Shown: piece by piece, positions 4,407-15,968 of the stretch
Layout: each line of letters begins with the position of its first letter
Position numbering within the stretch: the stretch's first letter is position 1
Source: Nitratiruptor sp. YY09-18
GTDB taxonomy: Bacteria; Campylobacterota; Campylobacteria; Campylobacterales; Nitratiruptoraceae
Assembly: GCF_016593235.1 (NCBI RefSeq)
Contig: NZ_AP023065.1
Coordinates: 1,364,001 to 1,428,000, forward strand
DNA length: 64,000 nucleotides
Direction of reading: 5' to 3'
Program-made: the position numbers and the translations under genes
Notes under the pieces: model-generated
What the model was told of the DNA's origin: nothing
The model's database searches: none
Seen by the model: only the letters and a program-made list of their open reading frames with translations

Positions 4407-6869
4407 ATGGCGGATCTTTTTGAAAAAAATCAAGATATCCAAGAGATCGATATAGAAGAGACTGTCAAGAGCAGTTATCTCGATTACTCTATGAGTGTCA
4501 TCATCGGACGTGCTCTCCCCGATGCCAGAGATGGTCTCAAACCTGTCCACAGACGTATCCTCTATGCAATGAACGAGCTTGGACTCACAAGTCGCGCTGC
4601 GTATAAAAAAAGTGCAAGAATCGTAGGGGATGTTATAGGTAAATACCATCCACACGGCGATAGTGCAGTCTATGAAGCGCTCGTACGTATGGCGCAGCCA
4701 TTTTCTATGCGTCTGCCTCTTGTAGATGGACAGGGAAACTTCGGCTCAATAGATGGCGACAGTCCAGCTGCAATGCGTTATACAGAGGCACGTATGACAA
4801 GCGTGGCTGAAGAACTCTTACGCGATATAGACAAAGATACAGTCGATTTTGTACCAAACTATGATGATACACTGAGTGAACCTGATGTCCTTCCTACCCG
4901 CATCCCAAACCTCTTGCTCAATGGTTCAAGTGGTATCGCCGTGGGTATGGCAACCAATATCCCTCCACACCGTCTTGATGAACTTATAGATGCTCTTGTA
5001 ACACTTATAGACAATCCGCAAGCACAACTTGAAGAAGTGATGGAATATATCCAAGGACCAGATTTTCCGACTGGTGGAATTATTTTTGGAAAGCAAGGTA
5101 TTTATAATGCTTACAAGACAGGTCGCGGCCGTATAAAGGTGCGTGCAAAAACACATATTGAAAAACTCAAATCTCGTGAAGCTATCATTATAGATGAGAT
5201 TCCTTACCAGGTCAACAAGTCCCGTCTTATCGAACAGATAGCACAACTTGTCAGAGAAAAACATATAGAAGGTATCAGTGAAATACGAGATGAGAGCGAC
5301 AGAGAAGGTATTCGCGTAGTAATCGAGCTCAAAAAAGATGTAATGAGTGATATTGTTCTTAATAATCTCTATAAATCTACACAAATGGAAGTTACTTTTG
5401 GTATTATTCTCCTCGCCATCGTCAATAAAGAGCCAAAAGTTTTCACTCTTCTTGAGCTTTTGCACCTTTTCCTCAACCATCGCCGTACAGTTGTTATTCG
5501 TCGTACAATTTATGAACTTGAAAAAGCAAAAGCACGAGCCCATATTCTTGAAGGTCTCCTCAAAGCCCTTGATCATATCGATGAGGTTATAGCAACAATC
5601 AAGGCAAGTAAGGATACACCAACAGCTCGCACAAACCTTATGGAGAGATTTGAACTTACTGAAGTACAAGCAAACGCAATACTTGATATGAAACTCCAAC
5701 GTCTAACTGGACTTGAGAGAGAAAAATTGGAAAATGAGTATAAAGAACTTATGGAGAAAATTGCATATCTCCAAAGTATCCTTCGCAGCGAAGCAAAACT
5801 CAATGAAATTATCAAAGAGGAACTTCTTGAGGTTAAAAATAAATTTAGTTCTCCTCGCCTCACTGAAATAGTTGAAGACTATGATGAGATCGATATAGAA
5901 GATCTTATTCCAAATGAACCTATGGTTGTTACCATTACACATAGAGGATATATTAAGCGCGTTCCACTTAAACAGTATGAAAAACAAAAAAGAGGTGGCA
6001 AGGGCAAAACTGCAGTCACTACATATGAAGATGATTTTATTGAAGACTTCTTCATCTCCAATACTCATGATACACTTATGTTCATTACTGATCGTGGACA
6101 GCTCTACTGGCTCAAAGTATACAAAATACCTGAAGCTGGACGCACCGCAAAAGGTAAAGCTGTAGTCAATCTCTTACAGCTTGAACCTGATGAAAAAATC
6201 AAAGCAATTATTCCTACAACAGATTTCAGTGAAGACAAATCTCTTGCTTTCTTTACAAAAAACGGTATTGTTAAGCGTACAAACCTCGCTGAATTCAAAA
6301 ATATACGCACCAGAGGAGTTCGTGCGATTACACTCGATGAAAATGATGAGCTCATTACCGCCAAAATTGTCAAGCCAGAAATAAAATGGCTCTTTATCAT
6401 TACCAAAAAGGGAATGTGTATCCGCTTTCCGGTTGATAATGTGAGAGAGATGGGAAGAACTGCCCGAGGTGTAACAGGAATACGCTTCAAACAAGAAGGT
6501 GATTTTGTCGTAGGGGCTGAAACAATCAAGGACGAGCACCAAGAACTTCTCACTGTTAGCGAAAAAGGTATAGGCAAACGCACAGAAGCAATCGAATATC
6601 GTGAGCAGACCCGTGGCGGTAAAGGTGTAATAGCAATGAAACTGACACCAAAAACTGGCGATGTGGTAGGAGTCGTAACAGTTGAAGAAAATAAAGATCT
6701 CATGGTACTTACAAGTAAAGGCAAAATGATTCGTGTGGATATGGAAAGTATTCGTAAAGCAGGAAGAAATACAAGTGGTGTTATGATTGTTCGTCTAGAA
6801 AAAGGTGATAAAGTAATAAGCATTGCCAAATGTCCAAAAGAGGAGGAAGAAGAAATTGAAGAGATATAA
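4407..6869 (+). CDS. gyrA: DNA gyrase subunit A
   Basis: Cleaves and rejoins DNA in the A2B2 gyrase that introduces negative supercoils. The winged-helix region carries the catalytic tyrosine Y125 in [10 protein letters not shown], and the quinolone-resistance region reads [14 protein letters not shown] with S86 and E90. The C-terminal half holds the beta-pinwheel repeats that wrap DNA, with GyrA-box-like segments around residues 530-540 (QKRGGKGK). The protein is 820 residues, normal for the family. The C-terminus is an acidic Glu-rich tail whose codons also carry the ribosome-binding site of asd. First gene of a forward run with asd, the YqhA-type gene, hemE and a radical SAM gene. Confidence 0.97.
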
Positions 6870-7884
6870 TGTTGCCGTAGTTGGAGCTACAGGAGCTGTC
6901 GGCGAAGAAATGCTCCGTGTCATGGAAGAGGTGGATTTCCCGGTAGCAAAGCTAGTACCGCTTGCCAGCAGACGTAGTGCCGGAAACAGTGTTGAATTCA
7001 AAGGCAAAGAATATACGGTCAAAGAGCTTACCGAGGATATCTTTGAAAAAGAGGATATTGAGATAGCCCTTTTTAGTGCAGGAGGAAGTGTATCAGCACA
7101 CTATGCACCCTATGCAGCAGAAGCCGGTGCAGTTGTTATAGATAATACGAGTCACTTTCGTATGGACCCTGAGGTACCTTTAGTAGTTCCCGAAGTGAAT
7201 CCAGAAGATATAGTAGCATGGAAAACAAAAGGAATCATTGCCAATCCAAACTGCTCGACCATCCAGATGGTACAAGCTCTCAAACCGCTCGATGATGCAT
7301 TTGGAGTAAAAAGAGTCGATGTAGCTACATACCAAGCTACCAGCGGCGCAGGCAAAAGCGCTATGGATGAGTTGGTCAATCAGATGAAAGATTTTTTCAA
7401 TTTCAAACTTGATGAGAGTGAGAAGAAGAAGTTCCCTCACCAAATTGCTCTCAATGTCATCCCGCAAATCGATAAATTTCTCGATAATGGCTATACAAAA
7501 GAAGAGATGAAGATGGTCAACGAGACCAAAAAGATTATGCACAAAAATATAGAAGTCTCAGCCACATGTGTGCGCGTACCAGTACTGCGCGGTCATAGTG
7601 AGGCAGTAACTGTATGGTTTGAAAAAGATATTACTCCAGAAGCTGCCAGAGAGGCTCTTTATAATGGCAAAAATATTGTTGTAATGGATGAACCACAAAA
7701 GAGCGTCTACCCTATGCCAATTACTGTGGTAGAAAAAAATGAGACATTTGTAGGTAGAATTCGCAAAGATATCTATCGCGATAATGTACTTCATATGTGG
7801 GTAGTAGCTGATAACCTCAGAGTAGGTGCAGCGACAAACGCAGTGAGAATTGCGCTCAAATGGATTGAGATGGAGGGGGAATGA
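6856..7884 (+). CDS. asd: Aspartate-semialdehyde dehydrogenase
   Basis: Converts aspartyl phosphate to aspartate semialdehyde for lysine/diaminopimelate, threonine and methionine synthesis. The N-terminus has the NADP-binding [11 protein letters not shown] motif, and the catalytic cysteine is C133 in [10 protein letters not shown] place the start at TTG 6856, inside the gyrA 3' end: AGGAGG at 6841-6846 sits nine bases upstream and the encoded protein starts right before the dinucleotide fold (342 residues). An upstream ATG at 6823 would add 11 residues deep inside gyrA and has no such site. The gene overlaps the next one by four bases. Confidence 0.95.
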
Positions 7885-10387: not shown

Positions 10388-10423
10388 TACATTTATAGGT
10401 TGGGTTTAGAGGGGTCTTAAAAC
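10388..10423 (-). repeat. Degenerate leader-distal terminal repeat
   Basis: Only 26 bases (10398-10423) match the consensus; the ten bases at 10388-10397 diverge. On the crRNA strand this keeps the repeat's 5' part, which pairs with the tracrRNA, and loses its 3' part with the TGTTACAAT promoter-like element. It marks the oldest end of the array. Confidence 0.9.
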
Positions 10424-11180
10424 CCTTACATATAGTTATCGCCGCAGTCTCGCATTGTAACAGGGTTGGGTTTAGAGGGGTCTTAAAACATAAGTAAATT
10501 CAATCAATTCATACTCCTTATTGTAACAGGGTTGGGTTTAGAGGGGTCTTAAAACTACGCAAGCCCCAATACCAATATCCCTATGAATTGTAACAGGGTT
10601 GGGTTTAGAGGGGTCTTAAAACGGTCTATGCAGTCCTATGACGATATCTGCAATTGTAACAGGGTTGGGTTTAGAGGGGTCTTAAAACCATATAGTCTTT
10701 GCTCACACTCACACCATAATTGTAACAGGGTTGGGTTTAGAGGGGTCTTAAAACGATAGAGACTTTTCCACCAATTTGCATCATATTGTAACAGGGTTGG
10801 GTTTAGAGGGGTCTTAAAACTAGGTTCAAGTCCATATGCTCGAAGTTTTAATTGTAACAGGGTTGGGTTTAGAGGGGTCTTAAAACTAGTCTCGCTAACT
10901 CTTCCTTGAGAAGAGTATTGTAACAGGGTTGGGTTTAGAGGGGTCTTAAAACGAAGATGATGAAGTGGAGTTTGTAAAGTTCATTGTAACAGGGTTGGGT
11001 TTAGAGGGGTCTTAAAACAGGAGAAAGCGAGATTTTATGCAAATAGAAATTGTAACAGGGTTGGGTTTAGAGGGGTCTTAAAACAAAAATGGAATGTCTA
11101 TTCCGAGAAGTTTTATTGTAACAGGGTTGGGTTTAGAGGGGTCTTAAAACAATCTATCGTCCCACTAACAACAGATTTGA

Positions 11181-11189
11181 ATTGTAACA
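11181..11189 (-). promoter_or_regulatory. Extended -10 promoter element inside the CRISPR repeat (first of 12 copies)
   Basis: On the minus strand every intact repeat ends in TGTTACAAT, a TGn-extended -10 box. The Neisseria meningitidis type II-C repeat ends in the closely similar TGCTACAAT and is known to drive transcription of each spacer separately. By analogy each spacer here may be transcribed from the repeat just upstream, with the start inside the spacer. The function is inferred; the motif is directly visible. Confidence 0.6.
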
Positions 11190-11231
11190 GGGTTGGGTTT
11201 AGAGGGGTCTTAAAACTATTAAATTTTCATT

Positions 11232-11260
11232 AATTTAAAGAATGTTTTAAATATTGTCAA
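11232..11260 (-). promoter_or_regulatory. Leader promoter for pre-crRNA
   Basis: On the minus strand TTGACA (11260-11255) is followed after 17 bases by TAAATT (11237-11232), a 4/6 match to the -10 consensus. Transcription would begin near 11225, about nine bases before the first repeat. The -35 box shares five bases with that of the opposing tracrRNA promoter. Confidence 0.5.
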
Positions 11261-11282
11261 ATTATATTTTTTTTGTTATACT
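11254..11282 (+). promoter_or_regulatory. tracrRNA promoter
   Basis: TTGTCA (11254-11259), a 17-base spacer and TATACT (11277-11282) form a near-consensus sigma-70 promoter. Its expected start at 11288-11290 falls on the first base of the anti-repeat (11289). Confidence 0.75.
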
Positions 11283-11288
11283 TTAACT

Positions 11289-11376
11289 GGGTTGGGTTTA
11301 GACAGGGGTCTTAAAATCGAGAACTGTTACTACAGTTCCATTGTAGGGCCCGTTTGCGGACGGGCCTCTGGATGAT
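11289..11376 (+). ncRNA. tracrRNA of the type II-C system (3' end approximate)
   Basis: Trans-activating RNA that pairs with crRNA repeats and loads them into Cas9. The anti-repeat at 11289-11317 matches the repeat except for two inserted bases (CA, 11303-11304) and a final T giving a G:U pair, so 14 + 13 pairs form around a bulge. Hairpin one is a 7-bp stem, GAACTGT/ACAGTTC (11321-11338), with a four-base loop. Hairpin two is a 7-bp GC-rich stem (11347-11366) with a six-base loop. No long U run follows, so the 3' end is uncertain. It converges on the cas2 stop at 11377. Confidence 0.85.
11347..11366. terminator. GC-rich hairpin at the tracrRNA / cas2 3' ends
   Basis: GGCCCGT pairs with ACGGGCC across a six-base loop. 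It lies at the tracrRNA 3' end and just past the cas2 stop, so it could end or protect both convergent RNAs. A clear T run is missing on both strands, so intrinsic termination is uncertain; it may be a structural tracrRNA hairpin instead. Confidence 0.5.
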
Positions 11377-11709
11377 TTAAAAATCAAAAAGTAATTGTTG
11401 TACAATCTCTTCTTGTGAGGATTGCTCGCCAACAACTATTTCCATTTTTCCAAATTGTGCATCTGTCATTAAAAACATTCTAACATTTCCTTTTTTTATA
11501 TTAATCTTTAGAAAATCTTTTAATCGTTTCTTTCCATAGTTAGCAGATTGCAACGAATTAAAAACTTTTCCATAGACTGAATATTGCAACCGTATATACC
11601 CTTCTTTATCAAGATAATTAAAAAGCCATCTATATCGCTTACGATCTTTTTTGGATGTTGTTGGGAGGTCGAACATTACTATGAGCCACATTATCTTAAA
11701 AGCACTCAC
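11377..11709 (-). CDS. cas2: CRISPR-associated protein Cas2
   Basis: Forms the spacer-integration complex with Cas1. The 110-residue protein shows the Cas2 start of a beta strand ending in MFDLPTTSKKDRK, with D14 as the conserved acidic residue, then a QYSVYGKVF strand. The start is GTG at 11709, overlapping the cas1 end by 14 bases; an ATG at 11691 would remove six residues. Campylobacter Cas2, as I recall it, carries a similar short extension before the MFD strand, so I kept the longer form. The gene is very AT-rich (11 of 60 bases are G or C at 11461-11520), unlike the middle of cas9. Confidence 0.95.
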   Translation of the reverse strand: MSAFKIMWLIVMFDLPTTSKKDRKRYRWLFNYLDKEGYIRLQYSVYGKVFNSLQSANYGKKRLKDFLKINIKKGNVRMFLMTDAQFGKMEIVVGEQSSQEEIVQQLLFDF

Positions 11710-12610
11710 TCAGAGCCTCAAAATCTATGGTAGGAAAATTAATAAACTCGATTTTTCTATTTAATATCGCAGCTTTGAATCTTTGTATATACCGCACCGA
11801 CGTTGTTCTCATTGTAGAAAGTCCTCCCTCAAAAATTATATATTCCTTATCGAAAATTGTAACGATATCTCTTTTTAATGCAGGGGCTAAATAATCATCT
11901 TTGTAATTTTGCAAAAGAAGATAGATAGCAATATCAACTAAAGGACGAAATGGCTCCATAAGATCATCACTCAGATTAAACGCATTGTAACGATTATCAT
12001 GCCAAAGACCTAATGCAGGAATAAATCCTGCTGCACTAAGATCACGCGTAATAAGACTTCGCAGTATGGCATATGCGTAGTTAAGAGCCTGATTGCGCAC
12101 ATCGAGAGAATTAGCCTCCCGTTTAAGGTCATTAAAAAGCTTTTTCCAATAGATCCGCGCACTCTTAGCCTCAGTCCTATAAGGGTCGCCTGGTCGAATT
12201 TGCTTCGCATATTTTTCAAGTTTTTGATCTTCTTTTGCAAAGTAACTAAGGACAGCCGACTGATTGAGGATCTTGACCCGAATGATCTCCTGCCAGAAAC
12301 GGTCACACAAATCATCGGGAAGGGAAAGCTGGGCCTTGAGGGTCTCTGTGGCCAATGAGCTCTGATGGTAGGGATGGAGAATGGCTGTAGGCATATAGTA
12401 TTCATCGCAAAAGAGTGCAGCCACTTTGTGCTTGCTCAGTGCTGCAAGCACCTTGGCGCTGAGAGTGAATCTGTCTCCTTCGAATATAATACTGTCAATA
12501 TCAGAAAGAGAAAGCTTCACCCTCATAGTCTCATCTTCTATGACGAGATTACCATTTTTAATTCTAAGCTTGCAAGGCTTAGTGATGCGGATAGTCTTCC
12601 AGGCTGCCAT
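11696..12610 (-). CDS. cas1: CRISPR-associated endonuclease Cas1 (type II)
   Basis: Integrase that inserts new spacers at the leader. The 304-residue length is usual for type II Cas1. Likely metal ligands are E147 (in RTEAKSARIYW), H204 (in GLWHDNRYN) and an acidic residue in the DDLMEPFRP segment at 215-219. Its ATG lies inside the cas9 3' end (32-base overlap) with GAGGAG eight bases upstream, so cas9 and cas1 are translationally linked. The 5' half is much richer in G+C than the 3' half (29/60 at 12241-12300 against 18/60 at 11881-11940), suggesting a composition boundary inside the gene. Confidence 0.97.
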   Translation of the reverse strand: MAAWKTIRITKPCKLRIKNGNLVIEDETMRVKLSLSDIDSIIFEGDRFTLSAKVLAALSKHKVAALFCDEYYMPTAILHPYHQSSLATETLKAQLSLPDDLCDRFWQEIIRVKILNQSAVLSYFAKEDQKLEKYAKQIRPGDPYRTEAKSARIYWKKLFNDLKREANSLDVRNQALNYAYAILRSLITRDLSAAGFIPALGLWHDNRYNAFNLSDDLMEPFRPLVDIAIYLLLQNYKDDYLAPALKRDIVTIFDKEYIIFEGGLSTMRTTSVRYIQRFKAAILNRKIEFINFPTIDFEALSECF

Positions 12611-15600
12611 AGCCTGACTCCTCTTTAAACCATTCTACGGCACCTTCGGGCAGGTCACCAAAGACTTCATAGCTCTTGACATGTCCGTCGAGATCGAGAT
12701 GGGCTTTGATAATTCCTGTGGCACTGCCGATACCTATTTGTTTGATCTGACTTCCTGTAGTAAATTTCGATGGTTGGGCTTTCGGGTTGGCTGGGAAACG
12801 AGGATTAAATAATGCAATATTTTTTCTATTTTCCACATAACTGCGCAAACAACCATAATGTATCAAACCTTTTTGATTGAAAATGAACAGCATTTCATTG
12901 AGATAACAGAGCAATCCCGATTTATCTTTTCGAAGTTCTCGGGCATTATTGACATCCATACGGCGGATGATGAGTTTGCCTTTGGAACCCTTTGAGATAT
13001 GGATACCCAGCATATTTTTATCGGTCTCTACCAGCCCTCGTTCAATCTCCATTGCATTGAGCTTATCATAAACAAAACGCATTTTTCGCACCTGCTTGCC
13101 ACCCACTTCGATAGGGGAAGCAATCAGATCTTTGAGCGTTCGCTGAAACTCCTCATCTATCTCTTTGTCGTTTTTGGCATCCATGAGCTGGTAACGGGCA
13201 AGAGTCTGAGCAATCTTAGCCGCCCGTTCCTCTACGACACGATAGCTCTCATCATTTGTATTGCCAATTCTGTGTAGCCAAAGCTTTTGGCGGATCTCCT
13301 TATCATAACGTTTCATAAACTCCTCTGCCGTGAGCTTATGACGATCTTTGATGACATTGAGGCCGTCAAAAGCCTCAAGAATATTCTTGCGAAGTGTAGG
13401 TACTTCGTGGCGAGCAGAATAAACAGTCTCTTTATGGGAAGAGGCGGAGAGGGGTTTCTTGTCCACCCAATATGAGACGCTGCGGATCGTACCGAACATG
13501 TCTTTGTAAAAGAGGCTCTCCTCCCCTTTGGACATGAAACGGCAAAATGCCTCGTCGATGTAGTCGGCGAGGGTGAGTCCTTCGATGTGAGGAGTGTATT
13601 TTTTCCAAAGCTCCTTGAGCTCTGCTTCGCTTTTGCCGTAATTCTCACGCAACATCCGATGCAGGCGGTTCTGCCAACCGCGAGTGAGGGTCGAGAGGAT
13701 GAGGGCATCTTCGGCGTGGTGGAAATTGGTCTCTCGGCTTTTGGATTTGATCCCGAGGAGGGAGCGGGTCTTGCTGGTGACCTTGCCGGGGATCATTCGA
13801 ACCCCTATGCCGTTCTTTCTCAGCTTAGGATCCGGAAAGGGATAGTAGCGTTTGAGGACCTGGGCAACTAATGCTTCAAGATAACTGGTTGCGCGGATCC
13901 CCTTGCTATGGGTATTTTCGGTGTAAATTTCGTCAAGAGATTGAGCTAAAAGATTTTTGCGTTTTTTCCAATCGATCAATCCCTTTTCAAAGAGCATTTC
14001 AACTCGTTTGCTATATTCTGCATCTCCAGCAAGCCAATCACCAGGGAGCCGATTGCCTTTGGCCGTATTGCTACTTTTGAGTGCAACGATGGTATTGTAG
14101 TCAGTGTTTAGACCACCCAGGCTTTGTGGAACGATATGTTCGATGTCAGCACTACCGTCAAGGAGCTGGGATATGTTGATGACCTTTCCACTATAAAGAT
14201 CAAGTCCTTTTTGGCTCTCCCAAAGTTGAATCTTTCTTGCCAATCGCTTGTCTATTAAAGGAAACTCTTTTTTGTATCTATTTATGATCTCATCAATAGC
14301 TTTTTCCCGTTCATTCATAGCCTTATAGATCTTATTACGAATCTGTTGCGGGAGGGCATCTCTGGTAGTCTCTAAAATAATCTCATCAAAGGGTCCATAA
14401 CGCCAACTCAAATCAGCGATAAGCCCCAATGCCCAAGAAGCAAGGGATTTGATAGCATGGTTGTTGATGACATTTTCTTCTTTTTCAAAGAGATTGCCCT
14501 CTCCCAAATGGAGATGTCGCAGGGATTTAGGGAAATGGGAATAATCTTCATGATCCTCAAATCCAAGAATCCTCTGGATCTCTTTTTCATCATGCCCTTG
14601 GAGAAAAAGGGGCAGTGCTTCGAGGATATATCGATGGGAGAGTTCACGAGTCCCAGATTTTTTGTTTTTGAAAAGTTCTAGCAGCTCCCTATTGTCTGTA
14701 TCGATCCCTTTCCCGTCTATCAAGACTCGTAACCGATCAAGAGCCTCCTGTGGGGTTTTGGAACGCTGGAGAATCTCGGCCAGTTCTCTGAATATCTGCA
14801 AGGCATCCGGATGTTTCTGGATACTGGCAAAAAGTTCTTTAAATTTGTGTATATCTGCAAGAAAGAAAAAGGGGACGAAGGTTCGGGGCTCTTTTTTGCC
14901 TTTGACAATACGCTCATCTTCCAAACTGAAAATTTTTTGCTCGGGGGAGAGTCCGAGGATTTTACGCAGATCCTTATGGGTGATCTTTTTGAGACTTTTC
15001 CCTTGAGCTATTTTCTTTTCTACCCACTCAATAACCTTTTCCCGGTCCTCCTGTGTCACTTCATAGCCGTCAATGTTCAAATCGGCAAGTTTTTTGTATA
15101 GGCGATAGAGATCATAGAGATAGCTGTATGCTGGGGCAGCGGGCTCCTCCTTATAAAAGGTACATCTGCCAAAAAGGGATTCGTCAATTGTAGGCATCTC
15201 CTGGTCAGTTATGCAAGCTTTTAGCTCATCGATAAGTTCGGAAATCTGTTCTTTGGTCAAATCAAAAGCTCCAAATTCTGCCTGGCGAAGCAGGATTTTT
15301 TCAATCTCCTCTTCAATATCCTCCCGCCGTATCATCTTTTCATAGTCCTCATGGTTGCGGTAGGAACGAAGGTCGCCTGCCTCTACTGCCCGGTGGATCG
15401 TCTGGGCGATGGTCTCTCCGCCATATTTTTTACGCAGCTCCTCCAGATGGCGCAGAGCGTTATAAACCTGGCGCCGCTCATCAGCTTTTTTCTTCGACTC
15501 ATTCTCAAAATCAATGAGGCCAAGTTCTAGTTCCAATTCATAGAGCAAGTCCTCTGTGGCAATCGATTTGTAGCCTCTATGTTTGGCCATATGGGCAAAA

Positions 15601-15968
15601 ATAGCAAAGAGCTCTTGAGAGGTTAATGGCCGCTGCCATACGTCGATAGCACGGAGCTGCCATCGGTTTTTGATAGGATTGTTTTTGGAGTCGTTGATCT
15701 TCATTGCCTCCGAATAATCAAGAATTCCATAACGTTCCATAGTTTGTGCCACACAACGGATGCGCTTTTTGCGCTTTTCTATGAGGCGACGCATACTTTT
15801 GTATTTTGACCGGATAGTTTGGGGAGATTCGCCACTTTGTTCATCATAAGGAGTATTGCGCATAACAACTGAATTGTCCAAACATGTATATGAATTTGCT
15901 CCAGACTCTTCTAAAATAGCATAACCAAAAGATGTAATTCCTAAATCAACCGCAAGAATTTTTCTCAT
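12579..15968 (-). CDS. cas9: Cas9 RNA-guided endonuclease, type II-C
   Basis: Cuts DNA matching a crRNA:tracrRNA guide. The 1129 residues are in the compact II-C range. RuvC-I carries D8 (AVDLGITSFGYAIL); an Arg-rich bridge helix follows at about 50-75; RuvC-II has the ETTRD glutamate near 531; the HNH domain has DIEHIVPQSLGG near 607-618 with later Asn residues; RuvC-III has HHAEDA near 750-755. All catalytic positions look intact. The C-terminal part, roughly 900-1129, is the wedge and PAM-interacting region; the PAM cannot be read from it. AGGTGA lies just before the ATG. No csn2 or cas4 is present, giving II-C. The centre is unusually G+C-rich (35/60 at 13681-13740). Confidence 0.97.
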   Translation of the reverse strand: MRKILAVDLGITSFGYAILEESGANSYTCLDNSVVMRNTPYDEQSGESPQTIRSKYKSMRRLIEKRKKRIRCVAQTMERYGILDYSEAMKINDSKNNPIKNRWQLRAIDVWQRPLTSQELFAIFAHMAKHRGYKSIATEDLLYELELELGLIDFENESKKKADERRQVYNALRHLEELRKKYGGETIAQTIHRAVEAGDLRSYRNHEDYEKMIRREDIEEEIEKILLRQAEFGAFDLTKEQISELIDELKACITDQEMPTIDESLFGRCTFYKEEPAAPAYSYLYDLYRLYKKLADLNIDGYEVTQEDREKVIEWVEKKIAQGKSLKKITHKDLRKILGLSPEQKIFSLEDERIVKGKKEPRTFVPFFFLADIHKFKELFASIQKHPDALQIFRELAEILQRSKTPQEALDRLRVLIDGKGIDTDNRELLELFKNKKSGTRELSHRYILEALPLFLQGHDEKEIQRILGFEDHEDYSHFPKSLRHLHLGEGNLFEKEENVINNHAIKSLASWALGLIADLSWRYGPFDEIILETTRDALPQQIRNKIYKAMNEREKAIDEIINRYKKEFPLIDKRLARKIQLWESQKGLDLYSGKVINISQLLDGSADIEHIVPQSLGGLNTDYNTIVALKSSNTAKGNRLPGDWLAGDAEYSKRVEMLFEKGLIDWKKRKNLLAQSLDEIYTENTHSKGIRATSYLEALVAQVLKRYYPFPDPKLRKNGIGVRMIPGKVTSKTRSLLGIKSKSRETNFHHAEDALILSTLTRGWQNRLHRMLRENYGKSEAELKELWKKYTPHIEGLTLADYIDEAFCRFMSKGEESLFYKDMFGTIRSVSYWVDKKPLSASSHKETVYSARHEVPTLRKNILEAFDGLNVIKDRHKLTAEEFMKRYDKEIRQKLWLHRIGNTNDESYRVVEERAAKIAQTLARYQLMDAKNDKEIDEEFQRTLKDLIASPIEVGGKQVRKMRFVYDKLNAMEIERGLVETDKNMLGIHISKGSKGKLIIRRMDVNNARELRKDKSGLLCYLNEMLFIFNQKGLIHYGCLRSYVENRKNIALFNPRFPANPKAQPSKFTTGSQIKQIGIGSATGIIKAHLDLDGHVKSYEVFGDLPEGAVEWFKEESGYGSLEDYPHH

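Follow-up and report, generated by a model that had tools for sequence, protein, structure and literature searches.

Predicted promoters in every repeat and a probably switched acquisition end in a type II-C CRISPR-Cas9 clade that includes Nitratiruptor

In the CRISPR-Cas9 locus of Nitratiruptor sp. YY09-18, contained in the 64,000-nt stretch of contig NZ_AP023065.1 analyzed here (the window), each intact repeat ends in a predicted extended -10 promoter element, and the locus belongs to a Cas9 clade in which the array appears to have been turned relative to the cas genes. The explanation that we favor, with a probability of roughly 0.77 based on sequence comparison, combines a type II-C locus, a -10 element in each repeat, crRNA 3′ ends set by RNase III, and an array that was switched within the clade. 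Promoters within repeats have already been published for Campylobacter jejuni and Neisseria, so the transcription mode predicted here is a known one; the new part is the acquisition end, which the comparisons strongly suggest to be switched. No report of the switched clade was found in searches of open-licence literature.

The array occupies positions 10454–11216, with the minus strand taken as the crRNA strand because the tracrRNA anti-repeat is the reverse complement of the repeat. It consists of 12 intact, identical 36-nt repeats (10454–10489, 10520–10555, 10587–10622, 10653–10688, 10719–10754, 10785–10820, 10851–10886, 10917–10952, 10983–11018, 11049–11084, 11115–11150, and 11181–11216) with spacers that are 30 nt long in 11 of 12 cases and 31 nt in the remaining one. 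Read on the minus strand, all 12 repeats are GTTTTAAGACCCCTCTAAACCCAACCCTGTTACAAT and terminate in TGTTACAAT, which fills the lowest nine coordinates of each repeat (10454–10462 in the last intact repeat, then starting at 10520, 10587, 10653, 10719, 10785, 10851, 10917, 10983, 11049, 11115, and 11181) so that a -10 element forms the very 3′ end of every intact repeat. The sequence-only reading, which had proposed an extended -10 at each intact repeat end, was correct in both sequence and position. Given the base composition of the window, TGnTAnAAT at a given place has a probability of 1.3e-4; treating the 12 copies as 12 independent observations was rejected, because repeats are copied and therefore count as one evolutionary observation. 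Downstream of the array lies a degenerate thirteenth repeat (10389–10424, minus strand), the leader-distal and presumably oldest one, in which positions 1–26 (10399–10424), the 26-nt handle part, are intact, and the promoter part alone is lost, with mismatches at 9 of the 10 positions from 27 to 36.

Upstream of the first repeat, a 63-nt leader (11217–11279, minus strand), the array-adjacent end of which is kept among relatives, is followed by a tracrRNA gene on the plus strand and then by cas2 (11377–11709; TIGR01573, E 9.9e-18), a type II cas1 (11696–12610; TIGR03639, E 2.9e-78), and cas9 (12579–15968; 1129 aa; TIGR01865, E 6.1e-116), all on the minus strand and so in the direction of the array. 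The tracrRNA gene has a predicted promoter, TTGTCA-17-TATACT at 11254–11282 on the plus strand, whose -10 is preceded by TGn (TGTTATACT), an anti-repeat overlapped by this -10 at 11280–11316 (plus strand; complementary to repeat positions 2–36 with 3 mismatches), and a tail with predicted hairpins at 11317–11375 (plus strand; z -2.27, 7 of 200 shuffles folding equally well or better), the 3′ end of which is provisional. On the minus strand, the leader contains a possible -10, TATAAT, 50 nt before the first repeat (11261–11266; a sequence match) and an alternative promoter-like site, TTGACA-17-TAAATT (11232–11260; a consensus match at chance frequency). Within 11250–11282, the divergent tracrRNA promoter and the possible array-direction site share one TTGTCAA/TTGACAA heptamer.

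By its sequence, with cas9, cas1, and cas2 together with a tracrRNA that has an anti-repeat and a structured tail, the locus is of type II-C. Neither csn2 nor cas4 was seen among the ORFs flanking these cas genes, which were read by eye and which we take to resemble Rho and a radical-SAM-type protein. In a tree rooted on the II-A proteins of Listeria and Nicoliella, the Cas9 of the window groups with other Campylobacterota Cas9 proteins and those of Ilyobacter and Pigmentibacter, apart from the II-A root.

Three spacers match phages, too few to derive a PAM. Spacer 3 (11019–11048) matches the head morphogenesis gene of NrS-1, NrS-2, and NrS-3 with 3–4 mismatches, its neighbor spacer 4 (10953–10982) matches the same gene with 1 mismatch, and spacer 10 (10556–10586) matches NrS-4 with 3 mismatches, with the same match in NrS-5. 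The matches are confined to Nitratiruptor phages, all five recorded from Nitratiruptor hosts; a repeat scan of viral contigs, a comparison of the array with plasmids, and an Rfam search of the window each returned zero matches. Elsewhere in the genome, cas1-like matches occur at G000:C1:1291905–1292678 and 1305303–1306184, one of them inside a 735-residue open frame that is a possible fusion, which suggests that the same genome holds other CRISPR systems.

To place the repeat end in context, cas9 neighborhoods of Campylobacterota were compared (a match in 60 of 397 genomes; arrays in 45 of 58 loci), and 49 arrays of usable length yielded 38 distinct type II repeats, the statistics for which predate a correction to the orientation of one locus, L066. 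TAnA[AC]T lies flush with the repeat end in 37 of these 38 repeats, as TAnAAT in 33, and is preceded by TGn in 28; conservation is much lower in the central part of the repeat than at its ends. The ends form a partial inverted repeat, with positions 2, 3, 5, and 6 complementary to 35, 34, 32, and 31 in 33–38 of the 38. T36 and G29, the bases that complete the extended -10, are conserved in 37 of 38 each and have no mirror partner (complementarity of 1 with 36 in 2 of 38, and of 8 with 29 in 15 of 38). Type I-like cas1 genes of the same phylum have 21 distinct repeats in their vicinity, and the terminal TAnA[AC]T was found in none of these at either end or strand. It was also not found at the end of either II-A repeat (Listeria, L122; Nicoliella, L127); like the clade of the window, these II-A loci carry the array on the cas strand, but they have csn2, none of which was seen in the window. 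The Ilyobacter II-C repeat ends identically, in TGTTACAAT.

Within the Cas9 clade of the window, TAnAAT is retained in 12 of 12 distinct repeats, and the most variable positions are 15–27; three loci (L050, L139, and L141) have CG in place of TG. Outside the clade, 8 of the 11 repeats in the L094 array (6027–6721) have C instead of T36, so a II-C array tolerates a weaker -10. The first 3 repeats of that array have T36 and the 8 copies nearer the 3′ end have C36; it seems that the last base of the -10 was lost and then copied onward. A -10 (TAnA[AC]T), in part TGn-extended, also lies 14–24 nt before the tracrRNA anti-repeat in 14 of the 15 clade loci.

The same element is enriched ahead of genes in the organism's own genome, as counted over 464 kb and 158 upstream regions against shuffled sequence. 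TGnTACAAT occurs upstream of genes 5 times against 0.2 expected (25x), and TGnTATAAT 9 times against 1.0 (9x), with 13 of 18 TGnTAnAAT sites starting 21–40 nt ahead of the start codon. In contrast, TGnTAnAAC was near expectation (2 against 1.3) and TTGACA was not enriched (4 against 6.1) upstream of these genes. Sites on the opposite strand were enriched as well, as expected because divergent gaps are read from both sides. De novo and seeded -10 motif models built on 132 upstream regions drifted toward an A-rich pattern, and simple counts replaced them; the drifted matrix was judged to be no model of the -10 because the tracrRNA promoter and TGTTATAAT scored low, like TGTTACAAT. Taken with the relatives' repeats, these counts make it very likely that each repeat here bears a promoter, a mode already known from elsewhere.

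The type II-C repeat of Neisseria meningitidis ends in TGCTACAAT, compared with TGTTACAAT in the window, and both would place a promoter within each repeat. Repeat promoters have likewise been reported or inferred for Neisseria, Clostridium cellulolyticum, and Flavobacterium. For C. jejuni, which belongs to the same phylum as the window and also has a tracrRNA and just three cas genes, individual crRNA promoters with the -10 box in the 3′ part of the repeat have been described, and one RNase III step was reported to remain (Dugar 2013, PMC3656092). In Flavobacterium columnare, repeat-encoded promoters were inferred, as here, but unlike in the window the array is transcribed toward its variable end, and the account in that source is of a TTG-type motif with no extended -10 (Hoikkala 2021, PMC8092290). 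According to published accounts, II-C arrays run opposite to cas (PMC6737040) and add spacers beside the last repeat, the reverse of the usual polarity (PMC8092290, PMC12638026, PMC12080349). By this rule C. jejuni would show both traits, and the clade of the window appears to reverse them. Array orientation opposite to cas is a usual II-C trait that stands outside the gene-content definition of the type.

To compare layouts, 70 loci including the window were surveyed, of which 19 had no usable 36-nt array and were left out (among them L068, L094, and L137, with a consensus of another length, L049, which is partly masked, and L095, with a 2-copy match unlike a CRISPR repeat), leaving 56 arrays from 51 loci. 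Terminal repeats were accepted with at most 14 mismatches (chance rate 21/10106); a more permissive cutoff, which allowed as many as 18 mismatches at the 3′ end, admitted probable chance repeats and was abandoned. The orientation of L066 was set by hand, as its repeat begins and ends alike; in this array (12520–13874) the repeat has ATTTTA at its start and TAAAAT at its end, and either strand could be read as carrying a -10. One of the arrays in L093, which lies beyond cas9, scores as running in the cas9 direction. A search of contigs added one further locus, cut inside cas9.

The surveyed loci fall into two groups. In a clade of 15 loci including the window, the array runs with cas9 and its 5′ end faces cas in 15 of 15, contrary to the published II-C orientation. 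The last repeat is changed in 8 of 17 arrays of this clade and the first in 1 of 17 (by one base), and the 5′ flank is conserved (z 16) but the 3′ flank is not (z 0.3). In the other 36 loci, the 3′ end faces cas, which is the published layout; the first repeat is changed in 19 of 39 arrays and the last in 0 of 39, and conservation is seen in the 3′ flank (z 18) and not in the 5′ flank (z 1.1). Judged by end-repeat decay and flank conservation, the clade thus departs from entry at the last (3′) repeat, and these data strongly suggest that its acquisition end was switched, with the leader and the newest spacer at the 5′ end and the oldest repeat last. The Neisseria-like mode proposed by the sequence-only reading accordingly stands in part: a promoter per repeat agrees with the sequence and with C. 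jejuni, whereas array direction is reversed, and acquisition polarity appears to be reversed, relative to published II-C systems.

The 15 loci form one Cas9 clade with moderate support (0.81), and their sister group has the published layout; therefore, the switch most likely occurred on the branch of this clade. In L051, of the sister group, cas, tracrRNA, and array follow in the same order and the direction of the array alone differs. Beside the cas9 locus in L052, a lone repeat at about 6902–6938 is followed by a flank resembling the 3′ flank of L051, and this is perhaps an array without spacers.

The oldest repeats decay differently in the two groups. Among old last repeats with at least 2 changes in the clade, the -10 core is lost in 6 of 7, while among the corresponding first repeats of the published-layout group it is changed in 1 of 14 and kept in 13 (p 0.0009, although repeats share ancestry and p values therefore overstate independence). 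The old first repeat of L072 has lost G29. For II-C arrays, the oldest (first) repeat has been described as decaying mainly in its first 15 nt, with the promoter thought to be kept (Feussner 2025, PMC12080349). That is the pattern of the 36 loci outside the clade, and the clade shows its reciprocal, with the last repeat decaying at the promoter end. Under the promoter model, old first repeats would need their -10 because they drive the first spacer, and the last repeats of the clade can lose it because no spacer follows to be driven. Alternatively, the oldest repeat may in both groups have lost its outer half through mere erosion from outside; since this gives the same pattern, the decay is consistent with the promoter model but is not proof of it.

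The tracrRNA matches repeat positions 3–35 by complementarity in each of the 15 clade loci; most mismatches fall at positions 16 (6 of 15) and 23 (5 of 15), and the complementarity persists where the repeat sequence differs between loci. A duplex of this length is of the kind that RNase III cuts, which suggests that RNase III trims the 3′ end of the crRNA. The sequence-only reading is therefore weak in its proposal that crRNA arises here with no RNase III processing, which is unsupported given the near full-length duplex in 15 of 15 loci and the RNase III step retained in C. jejuni. RNase III is reportedly dispensable for crRNA in N. meningitidis; that system differs from the window in its acquisition end, and the dispensability is not transferable. 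When read on the crRNA strand, the anti-repeat is a copy of the repeat, located 63–89 nt upstream of the first repeat, with a spoiled -10 (at 11280–11288 in the window, and likewise in the leaders of 14 relatives). The full TAnAAT is present in this copy in 1 of 15 loci (L050) and absent in 14, and position 36 is C in 12 of 15, with a G-U pair still possible.

We propose that transcripts initiated by the housekeeping sigma factor would begin about 7 nt inside each spacer, so that the guide would be 24 nt long and need no 5′ trimming, and that the 3′ end of the crRNA would be set by RNase III cleavage of the repeat:tracrRNA duplex. In the clade, the array would have been turned between leader and cas genes relative to other II-C loci, so that it runs with cas, and the repeat-borne promoter would have been retained through the switch. 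The oldest repeat of the window would then need only its handle for the last crRNA, and its promoter part would be dispensable. A broader proposal, toward which we lean, is that type II-C has two acquisition polarities, the clade having a turned array, 5′ entry, retained repeat promoters, and a silent leader. The array would be turned relative to a fixed cas-tracrRNA-leader side, with spacers entering at the 5′ end as in II-A; the near-symmetric repeat ends would let Cas1-Cas2 accept either side; and the leader would be silent toward the array, in line with an anti-repeat copy that lacks the full TAnAAT in 14 of 15 loci.

In type II-A systems, the leader lies upstream of the first repeat. Since the reversed layout puts the leader of the clade there as well, a leader promoter is a real rival: it would, as in type II-A, produce one pre-crRNA for RNase III and tracrRNA to process, and the repeat -10 would be a relic of a usual II-C ancestor. 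The TATAAT and TTGACA-17-TAAATT sites in the leader of the window could serve such a promoter, and the long anti-repeat duplex would serve a pre-crRNA route. However, only 4 of 15 leaders, including that of the window, have TAnAAT on the crRNA strand, and 1 of 15 has TGnTAnAAT, so no conserved leader promoter is seen, and a scan for promoter sites stayed at chance (3 found, 2.1 expected). A relic would also sit poorly with the retention of TAnAAT in all 12 distinct clade repeats while positions 15–27 vary most, nor is TTGACA enriched ahead of genes in this genome or a II-A-type leader-repeat hairpin predicted (z 0.22). We regard transcription from the leader as unlikely.

Alternatively, the conserved repeat end might be a terminal inverted repeat for Cas1-Cas2, or reflect a constraint from tracrRNA pairing, and be no promoter at all. 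The mirrored positions (2, 3, 5, and 6 with 35, 34, 32, and 31) and tracrRNA pairing up to position 35 are what this would predict, but T36 and G29 lack a counterpart at the opposite repeat end, the anti-repeat alignment does not include position 36 in 13 of 15 loci, and none of the 21 type I-like repeats of the phylum has this end. Moreover, the -10 side is the repeat end just upstream of the spacer in both groups; in one group this end faces the leader, and in the other, the chromosome. If integration were the sole reason for the asymmetry, a flip would be expected between groups that differ in leader side; instead, its direction relative to transcription is constant, which counts for the promoter reading and leaves this alternative very improbable. 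We might also have misread the polarity, with 3′ entry here too and the ends explained by conservation of the tracrRNA promoter plus local damage. Acquisition is deduced here from sequence, and the divergent tracrRNA promoter, lying beyond the 5′ flank, could itself keep nearby sequence conserved. Nevertheless, the anti-repeat and the tracrRNA -10 lie more than 60 nt from the array, the conserved 12 nt are flush with the first repeat, and changes affect 8 of 17 last repeats but 1 of 17 first repeats, with the reverse in the other group, so that a misread polarity is improbable.

In published II-C systems, promoters in every repeat coincide with growth of the array at its downstream end. If the preferred reading is true, a clade with repeat promoters and growth at the upstream end separates these two traits and provides a natural test of the role of each repeat base. 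The current orientation rules for II-C (opposite to cas, 3′ acquisition) would misorder the spacer history of these bacteria. The clade would also be one definite case for the question, open in 2025, of why II-C arrays resist consistent orientation, and a concrete case of the II-C subgroups with different acquisition ends that PMC12638026 puts forward as a supposition.
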